In this document: piece after piece, positions 3,833-64,000 of the stretch
Numbering within the stretch: position 1 is the first letter of the stretch
Layout: the number at the start of each line of letters is the position of its first letter
IMG/VR virus record: IMGVR_UViG_3300044641_009805
Span: 214,436 to 278,435 of that record
Length of the DNA stretch: 64,000 nt
Direction: 5' to 3' (one strand)
DNA from: a virus
Position numbers and translations under genes: made by a program
Notes under the pieces: generated by a model
What the model saw: the letters and a program-made list of their open reading frames with translations, nothing else
The model's database searches: none
Told to the model about the DNA's origin: nothing

Positions 3833-3853
3833 AATCAGCAAACTTAGAGAGAA

Positions 3854-4454: not shown

Positions 4455-4470
4455 GTATTCATTAAGGACA

Positions 4471-5117: not shown

Positions 5118-5124
5118 CAATTAC

Positions 5125-42254: not shown

Positions 42255-42507
42255 TTTTTGTGATCCACCCAGTTCCAGTCCATCCAATTTCGCCTTGGGG
42301 ACCTAGTAGCAAGCAAGAGCTATGTTCCCATTCTGGTTGCAATTTTTGTTTGTTTGAGTCATCGAATCGTTGTACTTCGATGATCATTAATATTGATTCT
42401 GGACCTACTTCTGCAACGACAGTAATAGGCGTTTTACCATCCGACCACAGTAACAGTTTCCTTTCTTCTTGAAGATTCGGAACGACCATGTCTCCTACGG
42501 ATAGCAT
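42181..42507 (-). CDS. SH3-like barrel protein related to the KPGDL array
   Basis: 108 residues on the minus strand: LSVGDMVVPNLQEE at the start, ILMIIEVQRF in the middle, CLLLGPQGEIGWTGTGWITKI at the end. The last part copies the G-x-IGW signature of the 54-64 kb array. It overlaps the 3' end of the convergent lipoprotein gene by 74 nt. Confidence 0.55.
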   Translation of the reverse strand: MLSVGDMVVPNLQEERKLLLWSDGKTPITVVAEVGPESILMIIEVQRFDDSNKQKLQPEWEHSSCLLLGPQGEIGWTGTGWITKITNEFLDRQPLRSEQPGHRIHPAR

Positions 42508-46043: not shown

Positions 46044-46232
46044 GTGAAGTTAGTTGCGTCTATAAAAGAAGTAATTGCTCTCGATGAAGAGTTATCCGTA
46101 GGATGTCTTGTCAAATCTTCTGCAGACGAAAACGCAACCGGAATGGTTATTGAGTTTTTATCTGCAGAAGAAATTTTGATTCTTTGGAGCATTCCTCCAA
46201 AAAGAAACTACACGAGTAGAGAGATTTGGTAG
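46044..46232 (+). CDS. Small SH3-like protein
   Basis: 62 residues with a GTG start. ELSVGCLVKSSADENATGMVIEFLSAEEILILWS has the rhythm of an SH3-like barrel like the KPGDL proteins (V-G-x-L-V ... G-x-V-I). Leaderless promoter directly upstream. Function unknown. Confidence 0.5.
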   Translation: MKLVASIKEVIALDEELSVGCLVKSSADENATGMVIEFLSAEEILILWSIPPKRNYTSREIW

Positions 46233-49940: not shown

Positions 49941-50138
49941 ATGGAACTCGGTGACCTCGCCTGGGATTACACCGATGCGTACGAAAACGTAAGCGGTGCT
50001 TCTTCGCTTCTTAACAGGAGCATGGTGATAATTTTGTCTTATCCAAAACCTCCTACGACCTGTAAGTCCGCCAGGGTTCTTACGTTTGAAGGCGTAGTGA
50101 AGAATGTCCCTATTGAATTTCTTTTACCTTTGTGGTGA
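49941..50138 (+). CDS. KPGDL-family small protein
   Basis: 65 residues, start ATG 49941 (MELGDLAWDYTDAY). E-L-G-D-L at the N-terminus and VIILSY strand match the array family further downstream. Leaderless promoter. Confidence 0.5.
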   Translation: MELGDLAWDYTDAYENVSGASSLLNRSMVIILSYPKPPTTCKSARVLTFEGVVKNVPIEFLLPLW

Positions 50139-51968: not shown

Positions 51969-52217
51969 GTGAATCATGATCCGATTGATATCGGAGATAT
52001 AGTCGTATTCAAAAGCGACAATCCTGCTTTTAAAATGGGATATGTTTTATGGGCAGGTCCAGATTATGAAGAAACTTCGCTAGAAGTGAAATCTATCATG
52101 CGCCCAGGCGATATTATGTTAGTGTTGTACTTCAGCAAAGAACGTAATAACGTTTTTTTAATGTTACATGATGGGACCACCGGATGGTCAAAAACTACAG
52201 TATTAGAAAAGCTTTGA
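51969..52217 (+). CDS. KPGDL-family SH3-like protein
   Basis: 82 residues, GTG start. IDIGDIVVFKSDN and a second MRPGDIMLVLYF strand, then DGTTGWSKTTVLEKL match the array pattern (G-D-x-V ... G-W ... L-E-x-L). Unknown function. Confidence 0.5.
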   Translation: MNHDPIDIGDIVVFKSDNPAFKMGYVLWAGPDYEETSLEVKSIMRPGDIMLVLYFSKERNNVFLMLHDGTTGWSKTTVLEKL

Positions 52218-52236
52218 GTAACAGGTGATTGCCGAA

Positions 52237-52476
52237 ATGAAACCTGGAGATCTTGTGATGATAGATCCAATGTGGTTTGGATATGATAATATCCTACCGC
52301 AATGGACAGATTCATTGTTCATCATAATAGACGTTTTCAAAGAAAAAAAGAGAATAGCTGATTACAAGCGAATGATCTGCAAAGTTCTCACACCAGAATG
52401 CACGCTTTGCGAATTTTACGATTATGAATTAGTGCTTGCAGAGACAGAAAATTATAGAAAAAACGTGTTATTATAA
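52237..52476 (+). CDS. KPGDL-family SH3-like protein
   Basis: 79 residues from ATG 52237, MKPGDLVMIDPMWFGYD, then LFIIIDVFKEKK and CKVLTPECTL strands. Clear family member, outside the main array. Confidence 0.6.
   Translation: MKPGDLVMIDPMWFGYDNILPQWTDSLFIIIDVFKEKKRIADYKRMICKVLTPECTLCEFYDYELVLAETENYRKNVLL
52466..52474 (+). promoter_or_regulatory. Extended -10, 5 nt from start
   Basis: TGTTATTAT, 5 nt, ATG 52480. Overlaps the end of the preceding gene. Confidence 0.4.
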
Positions 52477-52479
52477 TAC

Positions 52480-52890
52480 ATGAATCGAACACTGATCGTC
52501 ATGACGATTTTGGCTTTCGGATTTTCTGCTTTTTTTAGGAAGCTAGCTGTTGATAAATTGCATCCTTATTACATGCAGATCATTTCAGCAGGCGTTTATC
52601 TTACTATGGCTCCCGTATGGTACAATTTGGCTCCTAAAAATGCGACTATGGATGCTCAGGGAACTTTTTATGCAATAATCACTACATGCGTGCACGTCTG
52701 TGGCGCTGTCATGTTCGGAATGTTACTAAAATCTTCTAATTCAACAGGATCTCTATCGGTCATGGTGTCAGCGGCTCCCATAGTCACTGTCTTGTTGTCT
52801 ATCATCTTCCTTGAAGAAGAATTCCAACTGAAACATTTCGTTGCGACCTTGTTAACCTTGTCTGGTTTGACGCTTTTTAATATGAAGTAA
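52480..52890 (+). CDS. EamA/DMT-type membrane transporter (half-size)
   Basis: 136 residues, four to five hydrophobic helices (TILAFGFSAFF, IISAGVYLTMAPVW, VMVSAAPIVTVLLSIIFLEEEF, HFVATLLTLSGLTLF). The repeat-half pattern S-x-x-P-I-V-x-x-L-x-x-x-x-L-x-E-E matches DMT/EamA transporters. Small drug or metabolite exporters of this size form dimers. Phage role unknown. Confidence 0.65.
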   Translation: MNRTLIVMTILAFGFSAFFRKLAVDKLHPYYMQIISAGVYLTMAPVWYNLAPKNATMDAQGTFYAIITTCVHVCGAVMFGMLLKSSNSTGSLSVMVSAAPIVTVLLSIIFLEEEFQLKHFVATLLTLSGLTLFNMK

Positions 52891-52931
52891 ATTTGTTTGA
52901 GAATTTTTACGTGCAATTCTCTCGTCGTGGA

Positions 52932-52940
52932 TGATACCAT
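52932..52940 (+). promoter_or_regulatory. Extended -10, 6 nt from start
   Basis: TGATACCAT, 6 nt, ATG 52947. Same 9-mer as at 39191 and 57404. Confidence 0.55.
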
Positions 52941-52946
52941 ACTGAT

Positions 52947-53195
52947 ATGAAGTTCCTCGATGCCTACATTGCAGACATTCCTATGGGTTCCTTGATGTAC
53001 CCAAGTGCGGATGCGCGTAACAATTGCAAGGGTGGAAACTACTACCTCGAGGATCTCATGCGGTTTGTTGGCGATTCAGAGATCTTTCCTGCTGTCGTCA
53101 TCCCAGGAAAGTATGAGACTTTCGTCCAGGTTCTCACACCGACCGGCATCCACACCATGAGCAAATTCTCCATGGTTTCTTACGAGAAAACATGA
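52947..53195 (+). CDS. KPGDL-family SH3-like protein
   Basis: 82 residues, first gene of the dense array. DIPMGSLMYPSADAR at the start, PAVVIPGKYE and FVQVLTPTGIHT strands. GT-rich end SKFSMVSYE is family-like. Overlaps the next gene by 4 nt. Confidence 0.55.
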   Translation: MKFLDAYIADIPMGSLMYPSADARNNCKGGNYYLEDLMRFVGDSEIFPAVVIPGKYETFVQVLTPTGIHTMSKFSMVSYEKT

Positions 53196-53404
53196 AGGTT
53201 CAAGTTGGAGATCTCGTCACCTACGAATGGGCGACCAACCTTTCATTTCATGGGCTGGTTCTCGGTGTCAAGGATTCGTCTGATTTACACGGCAAACATT
53301 CGATCCTATATTCTTTCGAACTGCTAGAAGAAAACGAAAAAAGATTTTGGTACGATGTATGGGAAGGAGTAGACGAGGGCAAGATCATAGTCCATAATCG
53401 ATAG
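53192..53404 (+). CDS. KPGDL-family SH3-like protein
   Basis: 70 residues. MKVQVGDLVTYEWATNLSFH, GLVLGVK, FELLEENEKRFWYDVWE. Coupled to neighbours. Confidence 0.6.
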   Translation: MKVQVGDLVTYEWATNLSFHGLVLGVKDSSDLHGKHSILYSFELLEENEKRFWYDVWEGVDEGKIIVHNR

Positions 53405-53408
53405 CGTC

Positions 53409-53603
53409 ATGAATTCTTTTGCGGTAGGTGATCTGGTCACACTCAACATCCACTCATCATGGATCAAGGGTGACTTGTGCCCTATTTTACTCGTCATAGG
53501 ATTCGGTAAGACTGTCAAACTCAGAAAGCCCACTTGCAAGTTGCTCTTACCAGACGGAACGGTAAAGACGTATTTTAGTCGCCACGTGAAAAAATTACTA
53601 TGA
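53409..53603 (+). CDS. KPGDL-family SH3-like protein
   Basis: 64 residues. MNSFAVGDLVTLNIHSSW, PILLVIGFG, CKLLLPDGTVKTYFSRHV. Next gene starts inside its last codon. Confidence 0.6.
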   Translation: MNSFAVGDLVTLNIHSSWIKGDLCPILLVIGFGKTVKLRKPTCKLLLPDGTVKTYFSRHVKKLL

Positions 53604-53788
53604 AACCAGGTGATTTGGTCATAGGTCGTCAGGAGGGTAGAAAAGGAAAACCTCTCACTGGAATACTCCTATACGAATCTCCCCGAACCAACTGGTGGGG
53701 TGACCAACAACACCGATGGTGGTTCGTCCTGTGTCAGGATGGAATGATCGTGGAAGAGACCGAGAACTACATGGACGTCGTCGAATGA
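53600..53788 (+). CDS. KPGDL-family SH3-like protein
   Basis: 62 residues. MKPGDLVIGRQEGRKG, GILLYES, WFVLCQDG. Archetypal start signature. Confidence 0.65.
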   Translation: MKPGDLVIGRQEGRKGKPLTGILLYESPRTNWWGDQQHRWWFVLCQDGMIVEETENYMDVVE

Positions 53789-53979
53789 AGCGATCACCCA
53801 CGACATGGAGGGAACCTCTCCTTCCCGGTGAACTCGTAAAGTTCTCTGATGAACCTCAGGTTTACGTGGTCATTCGAACCTTCTTCTCCGATCGATTCCT
53901 CGACAACATCGTAGAGGTCCTCACACCCGATGGAAAAACACACCAGTTCTACGAGGACTACATGGATCGAGTCAGGTGA
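53785..53979 (+). CDS. KPGDL-family SH3-like protein
   Basis: 64 residues from ATG 53785 (ATGA overlap). LLPGELVKFSDEPQVYVVIRT, VEVLTPDGKTHQFYEDYM. A longer frame from 53716 is not needed. Confidence 0.6.
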   Translation: MKRSPTTWREPLLPGELVKFSDEPQVYVVIRTFFSDRFLDNIVEVLTPDGKTHQFYEDYMDRVR

Positions 53980-54065
53980 TCACGTTGTCAATCCAGTATC
54001 GATCTTCAAACATATTTATGATTGTCTGCGAATAATTTTGATTTGTTCGCACAGGAGATTTTTTT

Positions 54066-54869
54066 ATGGCCATTAAATTAACAGGATCCGGTGGGTCCAT
54101 CAAATTAACAGGTACAGGTGGAAGTCTAAAGGTTATTCCGTCAGTCGGCGGTGGAGGGACAATAGACCCAGGTTCTTTTCCCGACCTCGTCGCATGGTAT
54201 AAAGCTGGCTCGTTGGCTTTGAGCAATGGTGCAACTGTTACCAACTGGTCCGATGACTCTCCAAATAACAACGACTTGAACAGTTACGAGAGTGCTCCGA
54301 TATACAACTCATCCGACGCCTTATTGAATGGTATGCCTTCAGTGACCTACGATGGCAATGACTCAAATTATCGATCCAATCCCACAGGACTACCAGTTGG
54401 TTCTTCTGCATGCACAGCATACATTGTAGCATATTGGGATGGTGCATCGGGATGTCAGGGATTGTTCGGCTGGGGTGCAAATGCCTATACAGGAAGTAGA
54501 ATTTCTTTCGGGCAGTGCAATGGACTTTTGCAAGCAGAATCACAAGGCATGGGATCGGTCACACGTAGCATCTCAGCTAACACTCCTTTCATTTATTCTT
54601 TTCCGTATGTTGCGGGTGCAAACTATTCGGCATCCACAACATATCTAAACGGAGTTGGTCTCACAGGCGAAATACCAGGGTTCCCAGGGGTTCCAAATAT
54701 AATCAATCCCGTGTCGGAAATTGCGATTGGACGACCGCCTACGGTAGCTGTCGAACGATGGACCGGTGCTGTTGCAGAGGCTCTTATCTTCAACACGACA
54801 CACGATGCTTCTACTCGTCAAAGCATCGAAAATTATCTAGCGAACAAATATGGAATTACGCTAGCATAA
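54066..54869 (+). CDS. Lectin-like (concanavalin/LamG-type) virion or adhesin protein
   Basis: 267 residues. N-terminal Gly-rich repeats (LTGSGGSIKLTGTGGSLK), then a jelly-roll domain with W-x-D-x-S-x-N-x-N-x-L (WSDDSPNNNDL), GMPSVTYDG, and RWTGAVAEALIF ... ENYLANKYGI, as seen in LamG-like phage and bacterial proteins. May bind sugars on the host. CAGGAG and a TGCGAA/TTCGCA hairpin precede ATG 54066. Confidence 0.65.
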   Translation: MAIKLTGSGGSIKLTGTGGSLKVIPSVGGGGTIDPGSFPDLVAWYKAGSLALSNGATVTNWSDDSPNNNDLNSYESAPIYNSSDALLNGMPSVTYDGNDSNYRSNPTGLPVGSSACTAYIVAYWDGASGCQGLFGWGANAYTGSRISFGQCNGLLQAESQGMGSVTRSISANTPFIYSFPYVAGANYSASTTYLNGVGLTGEIPGFPGVPNIINPVSEIAIGRPPTVAVERWTGAVAEALIFNTTHDASTRQSIENYLANKYGITLA

Positions 54870-54954
54870 TTTGCGTATGAATTAATTCAAATTTTCGACC
54901 AGGAATTAAACGCTCCCGGTCGTTTTTCATCCCGTGAAATCCCCTCACATCCCA

Positions 54955-54963
54955 TGATATACT
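54955..54963 (+). promoter_or_regulatory. Extended -10, 6 nt from start
   Basis: TGATATACT (TATACT, 5/6), 6 nt, ATG 54970. Confidence 0.55.
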
Positions 54964-54969
54964 GATCCC

Positions 54970-55221
54970 ATGGACCTCAGGGTTGGCAACATGGTGACCA
55001 CACCAAGCTACGTGGATCTCTGCACCGATCCATCCCTCTATTATTCCTCCACGATCTTCAGCAGGTATCAGCTCGGAATCGTTGTGGAACTCCTGGAGAC
55101 TCCCGACGCCATCGGCCGAGAGCAGATCACCTATGCAAAGGTTCTCTCCTCCACCGGTCACATTGGTTGGTGTGTGGCCCGTTTCCTTATCCCTGCATCC
55201 CAATATCGTCGAGGATCATGA
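54970..55221 (+). CDS. KPGDL-family SH3-like protein
   Basis: 83 residues. MDLRVGNMVTTPSY, LGIVVELLET, AKVLSSTGHIGWCVARFLI. Carries the full G-x-IGW element. Confidence 0.65.
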   Translation: MDLRVGNMVTTPSYVDLCTDPSLYYSSTIFSRYQLGIVVELLETPDAIGREQITYAKVLSSTGHIGWCVARFLIPASQYRRGS

Positions 55222-55424
55222 AACCAGGATCTCTCATCGTAGTCCCTCCGCGTTCATACGTGAATTTCTACCCGGATCTTCGCTATGGAAACTCCACACG
55301 AATCACGGAAAACCAAGCCATGTTGGTACTTCCAGGTTATTCCGATGGTGGTTGGGTAAAGGTTCTCCTGGCGGATCAAAGAATCGGTTACATCTGTGCC
55401 ATCGGCATGAAGGAGGTTCAATAG
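55218..55424 (+). CDS. KPGDL-family SH3-like protein
   Basis: 68 residues. MKPGSLIVVPPRSYV, NQAMLVLPGY, WVKVLLADQRIGYICAIGMKEVQ. Confidence 0.65.
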   Translation: MKPGSLIVVPPRSYVNFYPDLRYGNSTRITENQAMLVLPGYSDGGWVKVLLADQRIGYICAIGMKEVQ

Positions 55425-55624
55425 TGAACCCACCATTCAACCCGGGTTCCATGGTGAAACTCACGAAGTACCGCACCTCACCCTACTACGATCAACCACT
55501 CCTCATCATCGATGTTGAATTCAAGTACACCATGTACTTCTGCCGGTGTCTCGTTCCAACAACAGCCATGGTTCACACCTTCGATTCCAAGGATCTCCAG
55601 GAAATTCACCCATGTATCCAGTAG
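55424..55624 (+). CDS. KPGDL-family SH3-like protein
   Basis: 66 residues with a GTG start at 55424 overlapping the previous TAG. FNPGSMVKLTKYRT, PLLIIDVEF, CRCLVPTTAMVHTFDSKDL. Confidence 0.6.
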   Translation: MNPPFNPGSMVKLTKYRTSPYYDQPLLIIDVEFKYTMYFCRCLVPTTAMVHTFDSKDLQEIHPCIQ

Positions 55625-55821
55625 GAACCTTGATCAGGGTTTGTAACACCGGTGGTGCCATACCCTACATCGAAATCTTCAACAATCGAATCGATTCATC
55701 CCTGGTTATTCCCTATGGTTCACTCGGAATCATAACAGAACAACACTCATACCGTTCCCAGGTGGCATTTCCCAACGCCCACGGGTGGATCCCCAACGAA
55801 TTCCTTGAAATCATTCGGTGA
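55612..55821 (+). CDS. KPGDL-family SH3-like protein
   Basis: 69 residues from ATG 55612. MYPVGTLIRVCNTGG, LGIITEQHSY, FPNAHGWIPNEFLEIIR. Confidence 0.6.
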   Translation: MYPVGTLIRVCNTGGAIPYIEIFNNRIDSSLVIPYGSLGIITEQHSYRSQVAFPNAHGWIPNEFLEIIR

Positions 55822-55854
55822 AAACCCACTAAAAATGTATTAGTATACAACACC

Positions 55855-56142
55855 ATGGCCATCTATCGAGTCTCATTCCTCACCGATCTCCTGGTGGAAT
55901 GTGAAAATGAAAAAGAAGCCGAGATGATCGGATTCAAACACCTCACCGATGAGGTTGATAACCGAGGATCCGAGGTTTTCTCAATCAAACTCCTAGAATC
56001 TCCGGATCAGGTTCGCAGGTGGGAAAGAGGTTCCTTACCATGGAGGGATACCCAACGAGATCTCCGCGGTGAACGTGAAAAACCTGTGGAACAAATCCTC
56101 AGAGAGGCACAAAATGGCAATCTACCAAAAACACCAGGTTGA
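55855..56142 (+). CDS. Small protein of a duplicated gene pair (copy A, first gene)
   Basis: 95 residues: YRVSFLTDLLVECENEKEAE, RGSLPWRDTQRDLRGE. Closely similar to the 59600 gene (YRVTFHTEILVDC; RGSLPWRSTERHLE). Not an SH3 family member; unknown role. Confidence 0.65.
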   Translation: MAIYRVSFLTDLLVECENEKEAEMIGFKHLTDEVDNRGSEVFSIKLLESPDQVRRWERGSLPWRDTQRDLRGEREKPVEQILREAQNGNLPKTPG

Positions 56143-56398
56143 AACATGGATACCCCTGGATGAACACCTAAAAAATCCCGTTAATTTCCCTAGAGGAATT
56201 ACCTCAGGATTTTTGGTGGTATTTACTCCACCTCCCCAGGATGAAAGGTTGTACCCACTTCGCCCCGGAAATCCAATACTTTTCCTAGGTGAAATCCCAG
56301 GGATGAAGGGCCATGGGATCTTCGTGGGGAACGATGGATTGGTTCGATTCGGGTATCACACCCATGATTTTCGGGTTATTCCCATGGAGGAACTGTGA
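56114..56398 (+). CDS. Small protein of a duplicated gene pair (copy A, second gene)
   Basis: 94 residues from ATG 56114. IPLDEHLKNPVNFPRGITSG, FLGEIPGMKGHGIF and HDFRVIPMEEL are nearly the same as in the 59845 protein. Start chosen to match that paralogue. Unknown function. Confidence 0.65.
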   Translation: MAIYQKHQVETWIPLDEHLKNPVNFPRGITSGFLVVFTPPPQDERLYPLRPGNPILFLGEIPGMKGHGIFVGNDGLVRFGYHTHDFRVIPMEEL

Positions 56399-56631
56399 AA
56401 ATCGGTGATCTCTTTCGCAGGAATCGATACCAAACAACCGGTGTATCAATCTTCAGGGAAAACTCCACCCTGGACTTCGATTGGATCGCGTTGGTTCTCA
56501 AAATAACTCCACCGTCCTACTCCACAACCCACTACACCACCATCGAGGCCCTCGTTACACCCGATAACCTGGTGATGAGGGCACTCCTCTTGAATGATGA
56601 GATGGAAGAAATTCTCGAGGTTCTCAGGTGA
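56395..56631 (+). CDS. KPGDL-family SH3-like protein
   Basis: 78 residues, GTG start overlapping the previous stop. MKIGDLFRRNRYQTTG, WIALVLKITPPSY, ALVTPDNLVMRALLL. Confidence 0.6.
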   Translation: MKIGDLFRRNRYQTTGVSIFRENSTLDFDWIALVLKITPPSYSTTHYTTIEALVTPDNLVMRALLLNDEMEEILEVLR

Positions 56632-56867
56632 AAATCGGTTCTTTGATTCGAAACAAACCCACCTCTCCCGGTGAATATCAACACCAACTATTCGATAACG
56701 TTTGTGGTGATTGGTTCGGAATCGTAATCGATTTCATCCCCAAGCACCGTGGTTCCAAGTACAACCAACTCAAGGTTCTCTTCACCTCCCACGGTGGTGT
56801 GATTGGAAAATCCTGGTTGATGGATGGTGAAATCTCGGATGACATAGAGGTTCTCAGTGAAACCTGA
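56628..56867 (+). CDS. KPGDL-family SH3-like protein
   Basis: 79 residues, GTG start. MKIGSLIRNKPTSPGEY, FGIVIDFIPKHRG, LKVLFTSHGGVIGKSWLMD. Confidence 0.6.
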   Translation: MKIGSLIRNKPTSPGEYQHQLFDNVCGDWFGIVIDFIPKHRGSKYNQLKVLFTSHGGVIGKSWLMDGEISDDIEVLSET

Positions 56868-57063
56868 TCCACTTCCCATCGGAACACTTCTCCTACCCAA
56901 CGATTACCAGGTTCGCAACGGAAATCCAACATCAGGATTGATTCTCGAGGTTCTCATCGATGAGAGGTGGAACACGGTTAACTACCTCGTTCACCTATCC
57001 AATGGAATCACCCGTAGAATTGGTGATGATGTTATCCGCGATTTGTTCGAGGTGGTGTTGTGA
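56857..57063 (+). CDS. KPGDL-family SH3-like protein
   Basis: 68 residues, GTG start, 11-nt overlap. PLPIGTLLLPNDYQV, SGLILEVLIDERW, YLVHLSNGITRRIGDDVI. Confidence 0.55.
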   Translation: MKPDPLPIGTLLLPNDYQVRNGNPTSGLILEVLIDERWNTVNYLVHLSNGITRRIGDDVIRDLFEVVL

Positions 57064-57236
57064 AGAGGGGAGATCTGATACGATTTCACATCAATGGTGA
57101 GTTTCCCAACGAAACCCTCGCGGTTATCATCTCCCAGGAAACCAACGGGTGGTTCGATATCATGTGGGCCCACAACGGAACCACATCACGATTCTCTGTT
57201 GATTTCATCTCTCGGATGTTCGAGGTGGTTCATTGA
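57060..57236 (+). CDS. KPGDL-family SH3-like protein (58 residues)
   Basis: GTG start overlapping the previous TGA. Translation begins MKRGDLIRFHINGEFP, then TLAVIISQETNGWF, FDIMWAHNGTTSRFSVDFI. Too short for many callers, but it has the family pattern and exact coupling. Confidence 0.6.
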   Translation: MKRGDLIRFHINGEFPNETLAVIISQETNGWFDIMWAHNGTTSRFSVDFISRMFEVVH

Positions 57237-57406
57237 GCCCCGGTGATCTCGTTATTTTCTACGAAGATCCCAACCTTGTTCTCGAGGTACACAAACACCT
57301 CAACATTGTTATCCTCTTCAACCCCAGGCTCCAAACCATGGATCGTTGGGGATACAATTGGATCAGTAAAAACTTCACCGTGGTGAAAAACCCACATTCC
57401 ACATGA
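57233..57406 (+). CDS. KPGDL-family SH3-like protein (57 residues, TTG start)
   Basis: TTG 57233 overlaps the TGA before it. Translation MSPGDLVIFYEDPNLVLEV, IVILFNPRLQT, WISKNFTVV. Its TGA is also the first bases of the promoter for 57419. Confidence 0.6.
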   Translation: MSPGDLVIFYEDPNLVLEVHKHLNIVILFNPRLQTMDRWGYNWISKNFTVVKNPHST

Positions 57407-57412
57407 TACCAT
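57404..57412 (+). promoter_or_regulatory. Extended -10 fused with a stop codon
   Basis: TGATACCAT, 6 nt, ATG 57419. TGA is the stop codon of the 57233 gene. Confidence 0.55.
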
Positions 57413-57418
57413 ATAACC

Positions 57419-57592
57419 ATGGTTCCTGGTTCCCTTCTCATCTCAATCGAACCTCACCACCATGTTCCACCCGGTATCGCCCTTCTCCTCTCCGAATCCC
57501 CCACCGGAGCATGTGAAATCATGTGGAACAATGGAACCACCTCCATCTACTCCTACTTCTTCCTCAAAAGGAACTTCAAGGTTCTCCAATGA
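57419..57592 (+). CDS. KPGDL-family SH3-like protein (57 residues)
   Basis: MVPGSLLISIEPHHHV, IALLLSESPTG, CEIMWNNGTTSIYSYFFLKRN. Leaderless promoter upstream. Ends in the repeated TTCTCCAATGAAACCCGG junction. Confidence 0.6.
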   Translation: MVPGSLLISIEPHHHVPPGIALLLSESPTGACEIMWNNGTTSIYSYFFLKRNFKVLQ

Positions 57593-57795
57593 AACCCGGT
57601 GATCTGGTTCAAACCAAATACAACATGCACTTCTTCTCCACCGCATCTCGGGTAAACGATCAACTCCCCGATGAACTACTTCACAAAGGAACCACCGGGA
57701 TCATCATCTCTCCTCCCAACGGAACCTGGATCAGGTGGATGGTTAATGGTAGGATTGGTTGGGGAAACTGGAACATGATGGAGGTTCTCCAATGA
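57589..57795 (+). CDS. KPGDL-family SH3-like protein
   Basis: 68 residues from ATG 57589. MKPGDLVQTKYNMHFFS, TGIIISPPNGTW, WMVNGRIGWGNWNMMEVLQ: one of the clearest full-length copies. Confidence 0.7.
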   Translation: MKPGDLVQTKYNMHFFSTASRVNDQLPDELLHKGTTGIIISPPNGTWIRWMVNGRIGWGNWNMMEVLQ

Positions 57796-57980
57796 AACCC
57801 GGTGATCTTCTCTTCATCAAACCTGGTACCCAGGTTCCACCCAACGGCAGGTATTCCCGTGGAATCATTCTGGATTCTCCATCCTCCCACGGTCTCATCA
57901 CCGTTGGGTGGCACGATGGGAAGATCAACAGTGAGATCATCACCAACATCAACCAGTACTACACGGTGATTCCCCAATGA
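57792..57980 (+). CDS. KPGDL-family SH3-like protein
   Basis: 62 residues. MKPGDLLFIKPGTQV, RGIILDSPSS, ITVGWHDGKINSEII. Its start DNA is nearly identical to that at 57589. Confidence 0.7.
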   Translation: MKPGDLLFIKPGTQVPPNGRYSRGIILDSPSSHGLITVGWHDGKINSEIITNINQYYTVIPQ

Positions 57981-58213
57981 AAAACCTCAACAAAGGTGAT
58001 CTCATAATCATCTGTGCTCCTAGCCACTCCTACCCCAACTCCTGGGTTCGAGGCCAGGATCCACACCGATACTCCGTGGATACTCCGGTGATCTACCTCT
58101 CCGAATTCAAGGAGAAGCACGGAGGTAATAACCCTCGGGTCTTCTTCAACGTTCTCACCCCGGATGGGGAACACAACATCTTCTCCGGGTACTGCAAGGA
58201 GGTTCCACAGTGA
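57977..58213 (+). CDS. KPGDL-family SH3-like protein
   Basis: 78 residues. KNLNKGDLIIICAPSHSYP, PVIYLSEFKEKH, FNVLTPDGEHNIFSGYC. Confidence 0.65.
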   Translation: MKNLNKGDLIIICAPSHSYPNSWVRGQDPHRYSVDTPVIYLSEFKEKHGGNNPRVFFNVLTPDGEHNIFSGYCKEVPQ

Positions 58214-58302
58214 TCTTCGGTGTGTTTGGAACCCTTGGGCTCATCCTACTCGCATCGGTACTCATCACGGTGGTGGTATACGGATCCTCCAGGGATGATT
58301 AA
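58210..58302 (+). CDS. 30-residue membrane peptide within the array
   Basis: GTG 58210 (overlaps the previous TGA) to TAA. Translation MIFGVFGTLGLILLASVLIT then VVVYGSSRDD: one transmembrane helix and a charged tail. The exact overlap supports translation; no homologue known to me. Confidence 0.4.
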   Translation: MIFGVFGTLGLILLASVLITVVVYGSSRDD

Positions 58303-58304
58303 CG

Positions 58305-58493
58305 GTGAAACCCGGTTCACTCGTTGGTTGGAAATCCCGATTCCAAATGGATCTTCCCGGTGATGTTGGGATCATCCTCGAACACATCCCCTATGAATTC
58401 CGTGGAAATGATCCGTTCCCCCACTGGAAGGTATTGTTTCCAGAACGTGGAGTTCTTCACTGCCGAGAATCGGATCTCCAGGAGGTTGAGTGA
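58305..58493 (+). CDS. KPGDL-family SH3-like protein
   Basis: 62 residues, GTG start. MKPGSLVGWKSRFQM, VGIILEHIPYEF, WKVLFPERGVLHCRESDLQEVE. Confidence 0.65.
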   Translation: MKPGSLVGWKSRFQMDLPGDVGIILEHIPYEFRGNDPFPHWKVLFPERGVLHCRESDLQEVE

Positions 58494-58696
58494 GAGTTGG
58501 TGATCTCGTTCTCTACTACAACTCCGATAGGATTCCCCTCCCCCTCCTCGGAATCATTCTCCAAGAAAAGTTCTTGGATCTCCAAGAACTCAACCTCATC
58601 ACGGTGGATCATCGTTTGTTCTCGGTTCTACTGAGCAACGGATCCGAGAAAATCATACCGGATTCCTACCTCAGGCACCTCAACGAAGTGGAGTGA
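58490..58696 (+). CDS. KPGDL-family SH3-like protein
   Basis: 68 residues, GTG start. MRVGDLVLYYNSDRI, LLGIILQEKFL, FSVLLSNGSEKIIPDSYL. Confidence 0.65.
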   Translation: MRVGDLVLYYNSDRIPLPLLGIILQEKFLDLQELNLITVDHRLFSVLLSNGSEKIIPDSYLRHLNEVE

Positions 58697-58716
58697 AAAT
58701 CCCCACCTCGATAGGA

Positions 58717-58722
58717 TAGGAT
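58717..58722 (+). promoter_or_regulatory. -10-like TAGGAT, 6 nt from start
   Basis: TAGGAT (4/6), 6 nt, ATG 58729. TAGGAT also precedes 61393 (7 nt) and 63952 (7 nt). Confidence 0.4.
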
Positions 58723-58728
58723 AACATC

Positions 58729-59229
58729 ATGGCAACGAAGAAATCCTCCAGTTCCACCAAGAAATCCACCGAGAAAAAGAACTTCGTGTTGAAGTTCCAC
58801 ACATCCCTCGATGGAGAGAATAACTCCTGGGATTCACCTATGTTCTACAGTGAATCCGGGCAAGGTTGGGTGGCCGATATCGGAAGTGCAACTCGATATT
58901 CCGAGAGCGGTGCGGATGGGATCATCCTGGAACTTCTCAAGGTGGAAAAGATCGCATCCGAGTTGATCGATGTGAACGAGAAACCGGATAACCTCTTCTC
59001 ACTTCACACGGTGTTCCTCAATGTGAACAACATCCCGCAGATCATCAACAAGGTTCCCCAGTTCATCGGTGATACCTACCACCTCATTCCCTCCCACGAG
59101 AACTGGAGTGAGGAGGATCTGGTGGATATGTTGAAGGAGGATCGTTTCACGGTTCTATGGGATCCGGTTGGAAGTTTTGTTCCTGAGGATAACGAGAGTT
59201 GGTTGAATGGTTTGATGGGTAAATCATGA
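58729..59229 (+). CDS. Hypothetical protein with Ser/Lys-rich N-terminus
   Basis: 166 residues. N-terminal KKSSSSTKKSTEKKN, then a folded alpha/beta domain (FVLKFHTSLDGENNS, GWVADIGSATRYSESGADGII). Not an array paralogue. Its own leaderless promoter. Next gene overlaps by 4 nt. Confidence 0.55.
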   Translation: MATKKSSSSTKKSTEKKNFVLKFHTSLDGENNSWDSPMFYSESGQGWVADIGSATRYSESGADGIILELLKVEKIASELIDVNEKPDNLFSLHTVFLNVNNIPQIINKVPQFIGDTYHLIPSHENWSEEDLVDMLKEDRFTVLWDPVGSFVPEDNESWLNGLMGKS

Positions 59230-59408
59230 AGAAATCAGGAATGAGGGATGAACTACTTCAGGTTTGCATGGATTTCATCCGTGAGAATGGTATCAGTTGT
59301 TCCGAGGTTATCTACCAATCGGATCGGATCATCCTAAACTCCCAGGATTTCATCAAGAGGATCTGTGATGTGGTAGGTTACTATGAAGTGGAGGAGGATG
59401 AGAAGTGA
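59226..59408 (+). CDS. Small helical hypothetical protein
   Basis: 60 residues (MRDELLQVCMDFIRENGISC, DFIKRICDVVGYY). ATGA overlap with the previous gene. No family. Confidence 0.5.
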   Translation: MKKSGMRDELLQVCMDFIRENGISCSEVIYQSDRIILNSQDFIKRICDVVGYYEVEEDEK

Positions 59409-59590
59409 ACCTCCCTCGAATTCGAAGTGGATTTCGTTTGTTGTTGAGAAGTTCCACCGGGTTCTTCACCTCCTTCCCCAACTGGAACCTGATGGGTATC
59501 AGGGCCCGGCAGGTTGGAATATGTTTACGTGCCATTCGAAGTGGATTTTTTGATGAACCTCCGGTGAAAAACCCAACCGGTGGAGGATAG
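59405..59590 (+). CDS. Doubtful short ORF
   Basis: 61 codons, GTG start overlapping the previous TGA (GTGA). The product (LPRIRSGFRLLLRSSTGFF) is Arg/Ser-rich and does not look like the neighbours; GGATTT-type repeats are visible. It could be a real coupled gene or mere open frame. Confidence 0.25.
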   Translation: MNLPRIRSGFRLLLRSSTGFFTSFPNWNLMGIRARQVGICLRAIRSGFFDEPPVKNPTGGG

Positions 59591-59593
59591 TAT
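59588..59593 (+). promoter_or_regulatory. -10-like TAGTAT, 6 nt from start
   Basis: TAGTAT, 6 nt, ATG 59600; the paralogue at 55855 also has TAGTAT, 8 nt from its ATG. Confidence 0.4.
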
Positions 59594-59599
59594 TGAATC

Positions 59600-59842
59600 A
59601 TGTTGTACCGAGTAACATTTCACACCGAGATCCTTGTGGATTGTGTTGATCCTCACGAGGCCGAGAGTATCGGTTTCCGGAACCTATCCGAGGAGATTCG
59701 AGGTTCATCGGTGTACAAGGTTGAGAAGATCGATTCGGTGGATCAACTTCACCGGGAGGAACGTGGATCCTTACCATGGAGATCCACCGAGAGGCACCTT
59801 GAACCTGAACTTCGGGTAGAGGAAATCCTAGGAGGAAAGTGA
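59600..59842 (+). CDS. Small protein of a duplicated gene pair (copy B, first gene)
   Basis: 80 residues: YRVTFHTEILVDCVDPHEAE, RGSLPWRSTERHLEPE. Paralogue of the 55855 gene; shorter by 15 residues. Confidence 0.65.
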   Translation: MLYRVTFHTEILVDCVDPHEAESIGFRNLSEEIRGSSVYKVEKIDSVDQLHREERGSLPWRSTERHLEPELRVEEILGGK

Positions 59843-59844
59843 AC

Positions 59845-60117
59845 ATGACCTACCAACGTGAACAATTTGAAGGTTGGTTACCACTGGATGAACACCTAAA
59901 AAATCCTGTTAATTTCCCGGTTGGAATAACCTCCGGATTTCTTGTGATTTATTCTGCCCCACCTGGAAATGGGATGTGGAAAACAGGAGATCCGGTGTTA
60001 TTCCTTGGAGAAATTCCAGGTATGAAGGGCCATGGGATATTTTCCGGGATGGATGGTGTGGTTCGTTGGGGATCCCATACATTTGATTTTCGGGTGATTC
60101 CGGAGGAGGAACTATAG
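59845..60117 (+). CDS. Small protein of a duplicated gene pair (copy B, second gene)
   Basis: 90 residues from ATG 59845 (matching the start of the paralogue 56114 better than GTG 59839). LPLDEHLKNPVNFPVGITSG, FLGEIPGMKGHGIF, FRVIPEEEL. Confidence 0.65.
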   Translation: MTYQREQFEGWLPLDEHLKNPVNFPVGITSGFLVIYSAPPGNGMWKTGDPVLFLGEIPGMKGHGIFSGMDGVVRWGSHTFDFRVIPEEEL

Positions 60118-60119
60118 AG

Positions 60120-60500
60120 ATGGGTACAAATTATTACCTTAGAAAAGAATCACCTTCCAAATGTGTAACCTGTAAACACGATCCGGAGGAGGAGGTTCTT
60201 CACATCGGAAAATCCTCCTTCGGTTGGTGTTTCTCCCTACACATCATCCCCGAGATGGGTATCAATTCCCTGGAGGATTGGATCACCGAGTGGGGTAAAC
60301 CCAATACCAAAATCCTAAACGAATACGATGAGGAGGTTCTCCCCGAGGATATGATCAAAATCATCACCACTCGAGGCCCAGGGAGGTGGTGCCCGGAGGG
60401 AATGGAACTTCAACGCCATGCTCCATACCACAAGGAAAATCCAGGAACGGTTCGTGAGGGGCCAGGCTCCTATGATTTAATTCTCGGCGATTTTAGCTAG
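60120..60500 (+). CDS. Conserved phage protein, GTNYYL family
   Basis: 126 residues. MGTNYYLRKESPSKC, CVTCKHD (zinc-like Cys), LHIGKSSFGWCFSLHIIPE and SLEDWITEW. This HIGKSSxGWCF family is common in phages; its function is unknown. Ends 2 nt from the convergent nuclease gene. Confidence 0.75.
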   Translation: MGTNYYLRKESPSKCVTCKHDPEEEVLHIGKSSFGWCFSLHIIPEMGINSLEDWITEWGKPNTKILNEYDEEVLPEDMIKIITTRGPGRWCPEGMELQRHAPYHKENPGTVREGPGSYDLILGDFS

Positions 60501-60501
60501 T

Positions 60502-61293
60502 TTAAACTTCCTGTTGGAGTTTTTTTAATTTTTTCTTTTCCCACCCTAATCTCTGCTTTTCTTTCATCATTGCCCTGAACTCAGGATCATCCCACCTTTT
60601 CTTTCTGGATTCAATAACCTTGAATCGATATTCAGGATCCTCCCACATCTTCTTGCTAGATTCACTCATCTTTTCTCTGTATTCAGGATCTTCCCATACT
60701 TTCTTCATGGTTTCAGAAATCTTTTCTTGGTATTCAGGATCTTCCTTAAATTTCTTTTGAGTTTCACGCATTTTTTCTTTGAACTCAGGATCCTCCCACA
60801 TCTTTTTTCTAGATTCACTAATTTTGGATTGATATTCAGGATCCTCCCACATCTTTTTACTATTCTCACTCATCTTTTCTCTATGCTCAGGATTCTCCCA
60901 CATTTTCTTACTTATTTCCTGAAGTTTTTTTCTTTCTTCAGGATCTTCACACCTTTTTTTATGTGATTCACTCATCTTTTCTTTATGTACATCCGCATGT
61001 TTGTAACCTGAGCTACCTTCCCCTCCAACGGTAAGATTTGCTCCACCATTTCCATGGTGAACATATGTTTGAAGTTCCTGAATGAGTTGTATCTCTTTAT
61101 CTAGAGATTCCTGTTCGTTATAGGTTTCAAACACAACTTCTCTAATGATCCCATGTTTCTTTTTAATGTTGGTGTGAAGAAGATTTCTTTCTAGATCTTT
61201 AATCCTCTTCGTTATTCCCTTCCCAACATAAAATGGTTTCCCATCATCCTTCCGATAATCAACATACACGAAGAATTTCTTCTCAGTTTCCAT
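60502..61293 (-). CDS. GIY-YIG homing endonuclease with eight NUMOD3-like repeats
   Basis: 263 residues, minus strand. The GIY-YIG nuclease core is at the N-terminus: FFVYVDYRKD (GIY-like), FYVGKGITKR (YIG-like, with Arg) and a later Asn-Asn-Gly region (GNGGANLTVGGEG). Residues 105-240 are eight tandem 17-residue units of the NUMOD3 type (EKMSESSKKMWEDPEYR), which bind DNA. Mobile selfish element inserted into the array on the opposite strand. TATATTTAT promoter before the start. Confidence 0.85.
   Translation of the reverse strand: METEKKFFVYVDYRKDDGKPFYVGKGITKRIKDLERNLLHTNIKKKHGIIREVVFETYNEQESLDKEIQLIQELQTYVHHGNGGANLTVGGEGSSGYKHADVHKEKMSESHKKRCEDPEERKKLQEISKKMWENPEHREKMSENSKKMWEDPEYQSKISESRKKMWEDPEFKEKMRETQKKFKEDPEYQEKISETMKKVWEDPEYREKMSESSKKMWEDPEYRFKVIESRKKRWDDPEFRAMMKEKQRLGWEKKKLKKLQQEV
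60574..60981 (-). repeat. Eight tandem 51-bp NUMOD3-coding units
   Basis: Eight 17-residue repeats (K-x-S-E-x-x-K-K-x-W-E-D-P-E-Y/F). Coding repeat, not CRISPR. Confidence 0.85.
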
Positions 61294-61297
61294 ACCA

Positions 61298-61306
61298 ATA
61301 AATATA
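61298..61306 (-). promoter_or_regulatory. TATATTTAT element 4 nt before the start codon
   Basis: Minus-strand TATATTTAT, TGGT, ATG 61293. Confidence 0.5.
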
Positions 61307-61379
61307 CTCTAAATACCTAAAAAGGTAACAAAAACCATGGTTTTTGATAGGTTTTGTGTAAATTTAAGGGATCATAGAG

Positions 61380-61385
61380 TAGGAT
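61380..61385 (+). promoter_or_regulatory. -10-like TAGGAT, 7 nt from start
   Basis: TAGGAT, 7 nt, ATG 61393. Confidence 0.4.
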
Positions 61386-61392
61386 AAAATTT

Positions 61393-61569
61393 ATGAAATT
61401 TAAGATTTTTGGCATGGTTCTATGGAAGGAAAAACCTGGAGTTATTTCTTCCGGTTCCTCATGGTGCCTTGTGTATGGTGGGTGTTACCTACACGTTTGT
61501 GATTCCCTCCCACAACTCCTACTGGAACTCATCACCGAGTTCAGGAGCGAAAAACACATGGTGGGGTAA
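61393..61569 (+). CDS. 58-residue Cys-containing small protein
   Basis: ATG 61393, frame with GVISSGSSWCLVYGGCYLHV and a helix (LPQLLLELITEFRSEK). An overlapping frame from 61409 is open but less protein-like. Preceded by a TAGGAT -10. Unknown function. Confidence 0.45.
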   Translation: MKFKIFGMVLWKEKPGVISSGSSWCLVYGGCYLHVCDSLPQLLLELITEFRSEKHMVG

Positions 61570-61592
61570 CCGTGAAATTCCCCACCGCGGGA

Positions 61593-61601
61593 TGATATAC
61601 T
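61593..61601 (+). promoter_or_regulatory. Extended -10, 6 nt from start
   Basis: TGATATACT, 6 nt, ATG 61608; same 9-mer as at 54955. Confidence 0.55.
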
Positions 61602-61607
61602 TGAAAC

Positions 61608-61826
61608 ATGCTTCCCGGTAATCTTGTCAAAAACCTGTGCTTCACCCACCTCTATTCCACGGTGAAACAGGTTCACAGAGGACTTCCGGAGGATGTGATT
61701 CCAATCGATTCTCTACTCACCATTCTCACCCCACCCAACGGAACACTGATCAAGGTACTGTACCGTGGGAAGATTGGATGGGTAAACACTAACTTCCTGG
61801 AGGCAATCTACAATGAAACCCGGTGA
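61608..61826 (+). CDS. KPGDL-family SH3-like protein
   Basis: 72 residues. MLPGNLVKNLCFTHLYS, ILTPPNGTLIKVLYRGKIGW then VNTNFLEAI. Array restarts here after the nuclease insertion. Confidence 0.65.
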   Translation: MLPGNLVKNLCFTHLYSTVKQVHRGLPEDVIPIDSLLTILTPPNGTLIKVLYRGKIGWVNTNFLEAIYNETR

Positions 61827-62007
61827 TTTGATTGAGTTCCGCAAATGGGGTTCCGGAACCTCCATGTGGCACACCTACATCGGAATGGTACTGGAAACTC
61901 CAATCATCTTCAACCACGAACACTGGTGTACCATTCTTCACAACGGTGAGGTTCGAAAGGAAATGGTAACACCCAACTGGTATGTTTTAAGCAATGATCC
62001 CCGGTAA
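61813..62007 (+). CDS. KPGDL-family SH3-like protein
   Basis: 64 residues. MKPGDLIEFRKWGSG, IGMVLETPIIF, CTILHNGEVRKEMV. 14-nt overlap. Confidence 0.65.
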   Translation: MKPGDLIEFRKWGSGTSMWHTYIGMVLETPIIFNHEHWCTILHNGEVRKEMVTPNWYVLSNDPR

Positions 62008-62212
62008 AATATACCTCTCCGATTCCTGCACCGTTTGGAACTCCCCTTCCACACAATCCCCTGAAATCATGGTGGATCACCTGGAATACAACGAAATAGT
62101 TCTTCTGCTCTCCCTCCACGGAGATGAACTCCAGGTTTTAACACCCCGAGAAAAAATAGGTTGGATTTCCCCCCGATCCGATGGAAAGGCCCGATTACGT
62201 GAGAATCGGTGA
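61994..62212 (+). CDS. KPGDL-family SH3-like protein
   Basis: 72 residues. MIPGKIYLSDSCTVW, IVLLLSLHGDELQVLTPREK then IGWISPRSD. Confidence 0.6.
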   Translation: MIPGKIYLSDSCTVWNSPSTQSPEIMVDHLEYNEIVLLLSLHGDELQVLTPREKIGWISPRSDGKARLRENR

Positions 62213-62414
62213 TATTGTAACCAACAATTCCCCAGGAAGTTCCTCCAAGTTATTCTCATCCCCACTCGGATCGGTTCCTCCTGGAACCAGGAAATACCAC
62301 GGGCTTCTAACCGGAATCGGTTTGGTTGTTGATGTTCATCGTTCCGATGTTAAGGTTATCTGTGGTGAAAATATTGGTTGGTGTTATGTAGGAAACGTGA
62401 AGGTGGTGGAATGA
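62199..62414 (+). CDS. KPGDL-family SH3-like protein
   Basis: 71 residues from GTG 62199 (MRIGDIVTNNSPG), matching the family N-terminus better than ATG 62181. GLVVDVHRSDVKVICGENIGW. Confidence 0.6.
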   Translation: MRIGDIVTNNSPGSSSKLFSSPLGSVPPGTRKYHGLLTGIGLVVDVHRSDVKVICGENIGWCYVGNVKVVE

Positions 62415-62620
62415 AGGATATTCAACTCGGAGATCTGGTTTTTATCATCGGTTCCCTATACATTCACCCTCAAACCCCGGTAATCATCTCCGATATTTTC
62501 CAACCTCCTTATTCCTCCACACCATGGTACGTGGTTCTCAATCCACTCACCGGTGAGAAACTGGAATATCAGGAACACAACATCTCAACCACACCACCCA
62601 TCGGAACACTTCCCAAATGA
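62411..62620 (+). CDS. KPGDL-family SH3-like protein
   Basis: 69 residues. KDIQLGDLVFIIGSLYIHP, PVIISDIFQPPYSS, YVVLNPLTGEKLEYQEHN. Confidence 0.6.
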   Translation: MKDIQLGDLVFIIGSLYIHPQTPVIISDIFQPPYSSTPWYVVLNPLTGEKLEYQEHNISTTPPIGTLPK

Positions 62621-62841
62621 TCCCCGGTGATCTTCTCCGTGCCCGGAGTAAAATCAGGGTTGGATTGGTTCGGATCTACACCGATGATCAATGTGATTCA
62701 TGGGAAACACACGTGAAAAAGGGTGAAACCTTCGTTCTACTGGATGAACACCAGAACTCATGGAAACAGGATGTTTGTAAGGTTCTATTTCCCCGTGGAG
62801 TTCGTTGGGTTTACCGGCTGGATGTGGAGGTGGTGGAGTGA
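62617..62841 (+). CDS. KPGDL-family SH3-like protein
   Basis: 74 residues. MIPGDLLRARSKIRVGLVRI, GETFVLLDEHQNSW, CKVLFPRGVRWVYRLDVEVVE. Confidence 0.65.
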   Translation: MIPGDLLRARSKIRVGLVRIYTDDQCDSWETHVKKGETFVLLDEHQNSWKQDVCKVLFPRGVRWVYRLDVEVVE

Positions 62842-63023
62842 GAAACGATGATATCCTCAGTGTGAATCAGGTGGTACCTGGATCCCTGGTTCTTCACCGT
62901 TACAACCCTGAGATCGGTGTGGTTCTCCGCGTTTCCTGGAACATGGTTGAGATTCTACTCGGAAACTCCACCGTGAGGTGGGAGATGAATGGATTCAGGA
63001 ATATCTTTAGGAATCTCCAGTGA
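62838..63023 (+). CDS. KPGDL-family SH3-like protein
   Basis: 61 residues, GTG start 62838. QVVPGSLVLHRYNPEIGVVL, VEILLGNSTVRWEM. GTGA overlap with the previous stop. Confidence 0.6.
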   Translation: MRNDDILSVNQVVPGSLVLHRYNPEIGVVLRVSWNMVEILLGNSTVRWEMNGFRNIFRNLQ

Positions 63024-63211
63024 AACGAGGAACCCTGGTTAGATTCAACGTTTACCCCTATTCCTCATGGGGATTGGGGATTCTCCTCGGTGAGAAACCG
63101 TTTGTGGATAGAGAAGGTAGGAATCACCGTGGATTTTATGATGTTTTAACCCAGTGTGGGGTTAAACTCGTTTCCGATGAGTTCTTCGAGAGGTTGAGCT
63201 GGGATGTTTAA
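63020..63211 (+). CDS. KPGDL-family SH3-like protein
   Basis: 63 residues, GTG start. MKRGTLVRFNVYPYSSW, LGILLGEKPF, YDVLTQCGVKLVSDEFFERL. Confidence 0.65.
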   Translation: MKRGTLVRFNVYPYSSWGLGILLGEKPFVDREGRNHRGFYDVLTQCGVKLVSDEFFERLSWDV

Positions 63212-63410
63212 CACCGGTGATCTGGTTCTAATCACCGCGGATTTTCTGGAACCACATGAACCCCGTGTGGGGATATTCTGGAGCGATAAGGTTCCACTGG
63301 ATGAATGGGGAGATCAGGTTGCAGGTGAGTGTGATTGTATCGTTTTCTGGAACGAAGATTTCATTCCTTTCATATGGGAAAACCTAACACTCCTCTCGGA
63401 GGCACCATGA
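63204..63410 (+). CDS. KPGDL-family SH3-like protein
   Basis: 68 residues. MFNTGDLVLITADFLEP, RVGIFWSDKVPL, CDCIVFWNEDFIPFIWENL. Confidence 0.6.
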   Translation: MFNTGDLVLITADFLEPHEPRVGIFWSDKVPLDEWGDQVAGECDCIVFWNEDFIPFIWENLTLLSEAP

Positions 63411-63655
63411 AACCCGGTGATTTGGTTGGTGTGAAGGATGGTGATAAAGGTAACACCTACTGGTTATACCATCCTGAATCCCCAATTACCATTAACCTCA
63501 TCCCCACCGATATTCGGTTTGGATTCTCGGATACCGGTTTGATATTGAAAACCCATATGAACAATGGGATGTACCCTTACGCAACCTTCCTCAAGATTCT
63601 CACCCCTCGGGGAATCGGTTGGGCAAATGAGAATTGGGTGGAGGTTCTCAAGTGA
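63407..63655 (+). CDS. KPGDL-family SH3-like protein
   Basis: 82 residues from ATG 63407. MKPGDLVGVKDGDKGNTYW, DTGLILKTHMNNG, LKILTPRGIGWANENWVEVL. Confidence 0.65.
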   Translation: MKPGDLVGVKDGDKGNTYWLYHPESPITINLIPTDIRFGFSDTGLILKTHMNNGMYPYATFLKILTPRGIGWANENWVEVLK

Positions 63656-63918
63656 AACCCGGATCACAAGTTCGTTTAATTCCTGAGTTAGAAGGTAACG
63701 ATTGTTCTCTTCCCCTATGGGATGATCCACCTGATTTCACTTCAATCTATAGGAAGAACCACACCGGGAGGTTCCGTTACTCCGAGGTGGGAGTGATTCT
63801 TGAACAAAGATACATTCTCAATGATGTTCATGATTCTCTACCCACCAGTTTTTGGGTGAAGGTGTTGTGCCCCGGTGGGATTGGTTGGATAAAGAGATGT
63901 GATCTGGAGTTGGTGTGA
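63652..63918 (+). CDS. KPGDL-family SH3-like protein
   Basis: 88 residues, GTG start. MKPGSQVRLIPELEG, EVGVILEQRYIL, WVKVLCPGGIGWIKRCDLEL. Confidence 0.65.
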   Translation: MKPGSQVRLIPELEGNDCSLPLWDDPPDFTSIYRKNHTGRFRYSEVGVILEQRYILNDVHDSLPTSFWVKVLCPGGIGWIKRCDLELV

Positions 63919-63938
63919 AAAGTTGAAACCTGGTGTGT

Positions 63939-63944
63939 TAGGAT
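63939..63944 (+). promoter_or_regulatory. -10-like TAGGAT, 7 nt from start
   Basis: TAGGAT, 7 nt, ATG 63952. Confidence 0.4.
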
Positions 63945-63951
63945 TGAATCT

Positions 63952-64000
63952 ATGAAACCCGGTAATCTGGTTCGAGTTACCAACACCCTAACCCCTCTCT
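63952..64000 (+). CDS. KPGDL-family protein, start only
   Basis: ATG 63952: MKPGNLVRVTNTLTPL, running off the window edge. Array continues beyond this window. Confidence 0.55.
   Translation, partial: MKPGNLVRVTNTLTPL

Follow-up and report, generated by a model that had tools for sequence, protein, structure and literature searches.

The last 64 kb of the 278,435-bp virus record IMGVR_UViG_3300044641_009805 (positions 214,436 to 278,435; below, ‘the window’ is this whole 64,000-nucleotide stretch, and coordinates count from its first letter) carry a tandem array of small, overlapping genes whose products are predicted to share a small SH3/Tudor-like barrel. The record belongs to a tailed phage, labelled G000 here, with genes for a major head protein, portal, terminase, tail sheath stabilizer, DNA polymerase and PhoH. 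In this analysis, we describe the array and its proteins, compare it with related phages, and consider how it may be shuffled and what it may do.

A tandem array of small overlapping genes

Inspection of open reading frames (ORFs) and start sites yields 33 complete small plus-strand members from 51969 to 63918, plus one truncated by the window end. A profile built from the window members recovers every one of them and 24 others at record positions 1-5718, so that the array spans both record ends and comprises about 57 members in total. The record ends, as they stand, do not connect in one frame, and a short gap or sequence error between them is possible; the contigs of two relatives, G001 and G025, likewise terminate inside the array. 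The tandem array of overlapping genes described in an earlier note on this DNA is therefore borne out and larger than claimed, as is its chaining by ATGA, GTGA or TTGA, with 17 window junctions being exact 4-nucleotide (nt) overlaps and others measuring 8-14 nt. The gene run that the note placed at 52947-64000 holds for its members but not for its continuity: the 31 complete members (57-88 amino acids, aa) and the truncated one form four blocks (52947-53979, 54970-55821, 56395-58696 and 61608-64000) with unrelated genes between them, and two further members lie just upstream.

These two are an SH3-like chain head with a GTG start (51969-52217; profile E-value 1e-7, 72% aa identity to its G026 ortholog) and a gene opening with MKPGDLV (52237-52476). 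Block 1 begins with a chain head of divergent start (52947-53195; 91% aa identity in G025), followed by 53192-53404 (4-nt overlap; weak without its start word), 53409-53603, 53600-53788 (MKPGDLV, 4-nt overlap) and 53785-53979 (4-nt overlap). Block 2 consists of 54970-55221, 55218-55424 (MKPGSLI), 55424-55624 (1-nt overlap) and 55612-55821 (13-nt overlap). Block 3 is headed by a gene with a GTG start (56395-56631), behind which four genes encode proteins identical in G026: 56628-56867 (4-nt overlap), 56857-57063 (11-nt), 57060-57236 (4-nt) and 57233-57406 (TTG start, 4-nt). It continues with the compact-type, Tudor/NdhS-like 57419-57592, the IGW-type 57589-57795, 57792-57980 (MKPGDLL) and 57977-58213, the last three with 4-nt overlaps, and ends with 58305-58493 (MKPGSLV; common to G001, G002, G026 and G027) and 58490-58696 (4-nt overlap).

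Block 4 opens with the IGW-type 61608-61826, whose C-terminal NETR results from the next start word being read out of frame. Two genes with 14-nt overlaps follow, 61813-62007 (MKPGDLI) and the IGW-type 61994-62212, and then the IGW-type 62181-62414 and four genes with 4-nt overlaps: 62411-62620, 62617-62841, 62838-63023 and 63020-63211, the last two with GTG starts. Next come 63204-63410 (8-nt overlap), the IGW-type, SH3-like 63407-63655, the IGW-type 63652-63918 (GTG start, 4-nt overlap) and the cut member MKPGNLVRVTNTLTPL at 63952-64000, after which the array resumes at record position 1 (L005).

Among the outlying members named in the earlier note, those at 51969 and 52237 stand. The minus-strand gene 42181-42507 (VGDMVVP...GEIGW) is a probable but weak member (profile E 0.07), whereas two plus-strand genes are plausible by motif and non-significant, namely the possibly degenerate 46044-46232 (E 6.5) and 49941-50138 (MELGDLAW; E 6.1 for ORF 49908, 0.46 for the G026 homolog). 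Three weak minus-strand family members also occur at L007 9378-10135 (-), distant from the main array.

Protein family and spread among viruses

In the member alignment, a single glycine is invariant and the pattern reads MxxGDLV...G.hL...(IG)W...LEV; the median pairwise identity within the genome is 27%. Even when stripped of the start word and the five C-terminal residues, 35 of 57 held-out members were recovered at E<1 (Z=5000). Of the controls, 0-2 of 843 small ORFs and 0-6 of 1140 shuffles reached this threshold. The compact and IGW subgroups match each other at the profile level with 98.7% probability, a value to be read with caution as three rows are common to both. Furthermore, AlphaFold2 models two members as all-beta barrels, 63407 with a predicted local distance difference test (pLDDT) score of 89.4 and 57419 with 86.6. 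In Foldseek searches of the PDB, the 63407 model resembles Abl and other SH3 domains (probability 0.99) and the 57419 model resembles PHF1/PHF19 Tudor, NdhS and PsaE (probability 1.0), each with E-values of 0.04-0.05, modest figures that we attribute to the small size of the barrel. Searched against PDB sequences, the IGW-group profile finds almost exclusively SH3 domains (best 9e-4). Because the two predicted structures, the profile comparison and the PDB searches agree, they support the array proteins being one family with a predicted small SH3/Tudor-like barrel, as the earlier note had proposed; neither differing folds nor the lack of a shared family was encountered.

Matches to named families are weak. 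SH3_3 (PF08239) appears in two members without significance (best E 0.02), SH3_YKFC_2nd reaches 0.006, and CarD-RID (1e-5 in one member), KOW and YccV are scattered over single members. As these matches spread over many families, no single named family covers the array proteins, and a known family name from Pfam, PHROGs or NCBIfam was rejected.

The search of other phages called for in the earlier note did find arrays: three pattern scans of IMG/VR revealed more than 100 contigs with such genes, most of them in arrays, amounting to about 2,000 members. At E<=0.01, this phage has the most members (51) among 25 records, although the profile was built from this very phage. The gene pool is open, with 1907 members falling into 1410 clusters at 60% identity, 1068 of them singletons. 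Among cultured phages, tblastn with three natural members gave no match, and an artificial consensus gave weak single matches in Acinetobacter podoviruses, without arrays. Bacterial genomes yielded two matches, both in marine metagenome-assembled genomes; these are probably viral contigs and hint at an aquatic habitat of the array phages.

Junction words and gene turnover

Most genes open with a nearly identical 15-17-nt word encoding the first strand (M-K-x-G-D-L), and the exact word ATGAAACCCGGTGATYT occurs four times in the genome and never in the reversed control. The start word ATGAAAnnnGGTGAT contains a TGA in each of the two other frames (A-TGA, GG-TGA-T), and a preceding gene read in one of them therefore terminates after overlapping by 4 or 14 nt. 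In the window, a gene’s last codons are often GAGGTTCTCCA, directly followed by ATGA or GTGA, and the GAGGT in these codons encodes Glu-Val while doubling as the Shine-Dalgarno (SD) sequence of the next gene. For example, at 57579-57608 (+) an SD-like sequence in the upstream gene’s last codons is followed by the start word ATGAAACCCGGTGATCTG. In other contigs, the typical end E-V-(I/L)-N-E-S-R-stop is the next gene’s ATGAAAGTNGGTGA read in another frame.

Across 169 oriented loci with 2013 members and 1282 junctions, the overlap register is exactly -14 in 760 and exactly -4 in 264; loci found by the start word alone show 43% and 35%, respectively, and this phage has 10% at -14 and 54% at -4. 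C-termini of the NESR type accompany 602 of the 760 junctions in the -14 register and one of the 264 in the -4 register. Moreover, SD-like sequence lies upstream of 1332 of the 2013 members, and all but one (2012) share one strand within their locus. The Gly4 codon is GGT in 86% of cases versus 31% elsewhere, and still in 70-75% where the stop is not required by any gene upstream.

A promoter-like motif, GTGAAA-(A/T)(C/T)CC followed after ~17 nt by GATATACT/GATACCAT and ending 6-8 nt before ATG, was observed upstream of block heads (sites before 54970, 55855, 57419, 58729, 59600, 61608 and L005 868). It would yield nearly leaderless mRNAs; a narrow search places it almost solely in the array, with a pattern too narrow to measure its frequency. 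Terminator-like and sigma-70-like sites in the array are not above shuffles.

Comparison with related phages places the variation at the level of single genes. The core of G026 is 92-99.5% identical to G000 over long stretches, one of which runs without a break for 20 kb close to the array, yet the array region splits into many matching blocks. Eight of 32 compared window members lack a G026 partner at a threshold of at least 55%, and 26 of 51 G026 members lack a partner in G000. Single genes are absent from G026 (61994, 62617 and 63020); in G002, 62617 is present, 62838 has moved and 63020 has different neighbors. G002 has a core only ~70% identical, yet single array genes are 83-96% identical and differently ordered, and reordered members are also found in L053/L097. 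The synonymous divergence (dS) to G026 of the adjacent genes 54970, 55218 and 55424 is 0.08, 2.41 and 0.07, the middle gene being singly replaced, and it is zero for five consecutive genes. The boundaries of matching blocks coincide with start words in 45 of 63 cases in this clade (expected 19%, p 3e-19) and, independently, in 154 of 203 cases in other contigs (expected 22%, p 2e-60).

The pooled ratio of nonsynonymous to synonymous divergence (dN/dS) over orthologs is 0.17-0.41, indicating that the genes are constrained, with no gene-wide positive selection. This gives no support to the strong diversifying pressure expected in the earlier note, and the expansion by duplication that it proposed fares no better as a recent event: one of 1540 within-genome pairs reaches 50% identity, and among the 1907 members, 22 have a close paralog (at least 60%) within their locus versus 831 with such a partner in another locus, some of these probably being the same virus assembled twice. 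Few duplicates were seen, such as the L097 copies. The diversity is thus shown to arise by gain, loss and exchange of whole genes, and the array is a non-redundant cassette collection, exchanged gene by gene under purifying selection.

As for the machinery, tyrosine recombinase (PF00589; 14 of 14 controls positive) and serine resolvase (controls positive) are absent in G000, G002 and G026, although these records may be incomplete, and so is the reverse transcriptase (PF00078) that would mark a diversity-generating retroelement. The phage does carry a RecA/UvsX gene. Given the lack of integrase, resolvase and reverse transcriptase, and because a crossover between two words would preserve the reading frame, the stop, the ribosome site and the coupling, phage RecA/UvsX may act on the shared junction word, with general homologous recombination moving the genes.

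Various other genes lie within or near the array. Between the blocks are the virion-structural gene 54066 (phrog_10356), the pairs 55855/56114 and 59600/59845, and the genes 58729, 59226, 60120 and 60502 (-). The pairs represent a two-gene unit present twice (55855-56398 and 59600-60117) with no Pfam or PHROG match, the second gene having 73-75% DNA identity between copies. The minus-strand gene at 60502-61293 is homing-endonuclease-like (phrog_314), has a 51-nt internal tandem repeat and matches several places in G002. A half-length EamA-like transporter gene (52480-52890) sits between array members, and behind the array come an AAA ATPase gene (L005 5764-6762) and a cupin/cysteine-dioxygenase-like gene (6807-7154). 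Additionally, a structural protein (46929-48938, minus strand) has long degenerate internal repeats (VAGLADLNGALEVAG...). The window has no Rfam or tRNA matches.

Function, rival explanations and known systems

We consider it probable (roughly 0.6) that this is a hypervariable cassette array of a jumbo tailed phage, recombined at its junction words and serving as a repertoire of host-targeting binders. A bolder version, to which we would give a little under even odds, is a recombinase-free cassette system whose coding start word serves as start, as stop for all frames and as the place of crossover; with it, aquatic phages would shuffle single genes from an open pool of single-fold binders, an adaptable arsenal against hosts. 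Swappable genes of an SH3 fold suggest a mix-and-match set of binding proteins, and four features point to variable host targets: the genes are accessory in distribution, the fold is of a binding type and lacks a conserved polar site, the charge varies, and one of each kind is kept. Predicted isoelectric points have quartiles of 4.9-9.0 across members, and a uniform charge, as in a DNA mimic or nucleic-acid binder, was rejected on this spread. The proteins could be expressed together via translational coupling and act as single-domain binders that target nucleic acids or the proteins of the host (or of rival phages), each binder being of benefit in certain hosts or conditions, with single genes kept or lost through selection on the phage population. 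A role as host or defense inhibitors is plausible.

Several observations weigh against this interpretation. Without the start word, seven of the 57 members are unrecognizable, and unrelated genes within the array mean that membership is not exclusive. Phages in general exchange DNA at gene boundaries; the blastn ends resolve a crossover no finer than the ~40-nt junction word, and the shared word itself draws block ends towards it. Some of the loci behind the register counts were selected by junction pattern, for which the start-word-only loci serve as control, and the GGT bias could reflect common descent or initiation context. Finally, the functional part, host-targeting binders, is what we infer.

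Alternatively, the genes could be accessory parts of the virion or replisome, that is, decoration, tail or polymerase-associated SH3 subunits tuning one phage machine. The virion-structural gene 54066 and a lysozyme gene (49108) do lie in or near the array, and Iyer 2021 (PMC7824862) reports that a small gene for an SH3 fold neighbors the DNA polymerases of jumbo phages. We nevertheless regard such a role as unlikely, since the flanking core is colinear and conserved while array genes vary among phages with 92-99% core identity, and dozens of non-redundant copies share neither charge nor site. It is more doubtful still that coupled short genes merely gather as near-neutral, mostly dispensable filler in a tolerant region, such as stuffing for headful packaging. 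High turnover and the analogous ORFanage of Synechococcus phage S-PM2, whose 33 small ORFs disappeared in the laboratory while plaques became larger (PMC4503421), fit this idea, but the low dN/dS, the conserved fold and the retention of single representatives instead of duplicates do not.

If the genes had duplicated in tandem and then diverged rapidly under positive selection, this would explain one family, a shared start word and the tandem layout, and the few duplicates do exist; set against these, the near-absence of close paralogs within genomes versus many close relatives in other genomes, and an omega well below 1, make such a history very improbable. We give the least credence to an integron-like or recombinase-driven cassette system, or a diversity-generating retroelement. 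Single-gene cassettes, a conserved boundary word and gene-by-gene reordering recall such systems, the records may be incomplete, and a host-encoded or other enzyme could act; however, the enzymes sought in the three genomes were absent, and the boundary is coding sequence rather than an attC-like site.

If the binder repertoire with exchange at junction words is real, many unnamed small genes of uncultured viruses would be one fold in one architecture, and phages would have a simple rule for exchanging single genes while leaving the operon unbroken. Small binding domains from the open pool would supply new binders of host proteins, possibly including counter-defense factors, and the role of phage ‘ORFan islands’ would be open to direct gene-by-gene assay.

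The earlier note knew of no described system of this form, and our search of the open literature found none, although a description elsewhere is possible. In integron arrays, single-gene cassettes are gained, lost and reordered. The present array resembles them by analogy, but no integrase was found and its genes overlap instead of standing apart; as most overlap by 4 or 14 nt, there is no intergenic room for an attC site. In overall fold, by Foldseek and weak profile matches, the proteins are like the small barrels of bacterial SH3 (SH3_3), Tudor, KOW and CarD-RID, from which they differ as stand-alone phage proteins of 57-95 aa encoded in arrays.

Promoter/stem-loop elements of T4 (PeSLs) were reportedly the subject of work by Arbiol in 2010 and Comeau in 2014. 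They are described as repeated short regulatory elements that lie between small accessory genes of large myoviruses and mediate shuffling (PMC4503421). Both systems thus have a repeated short sequence at the borders of shuffled small genes in a large phage; unlike the PeSLs so described, the array’s repeated word is coding, being the start of one gene and the end of the previous one, and its genes are of one fold. In a test for the promoter and stem-loop, the promoter-like motif preceded block heads only. The S-PM2 ORFanage is likewise a run of small chained ORFs at an exchange hotspot, with many 4-nt overlaps and variable order in metagenomes (PMC4503421). It differs in that its commonest overlap is -4 and its ORFs show no significant match to any of three family profiles, and it was rejected as the same family because the proteins differ. 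Bacillus phage G has an expansion of ~35 zinc-ribbon proteins (Iyer 2021, PMC7824862), similarly a case of one family grown very large in a jumbo phage; its fold differs, there are ~57 members here, and the passage on phage G describes neither a tandem cassette array nor exchange. The closest precedents are gene exchange in T4-like variable regions and the S-PM2 ORFanage, with the zinc ribbons of phage G as the precedent for copy number.

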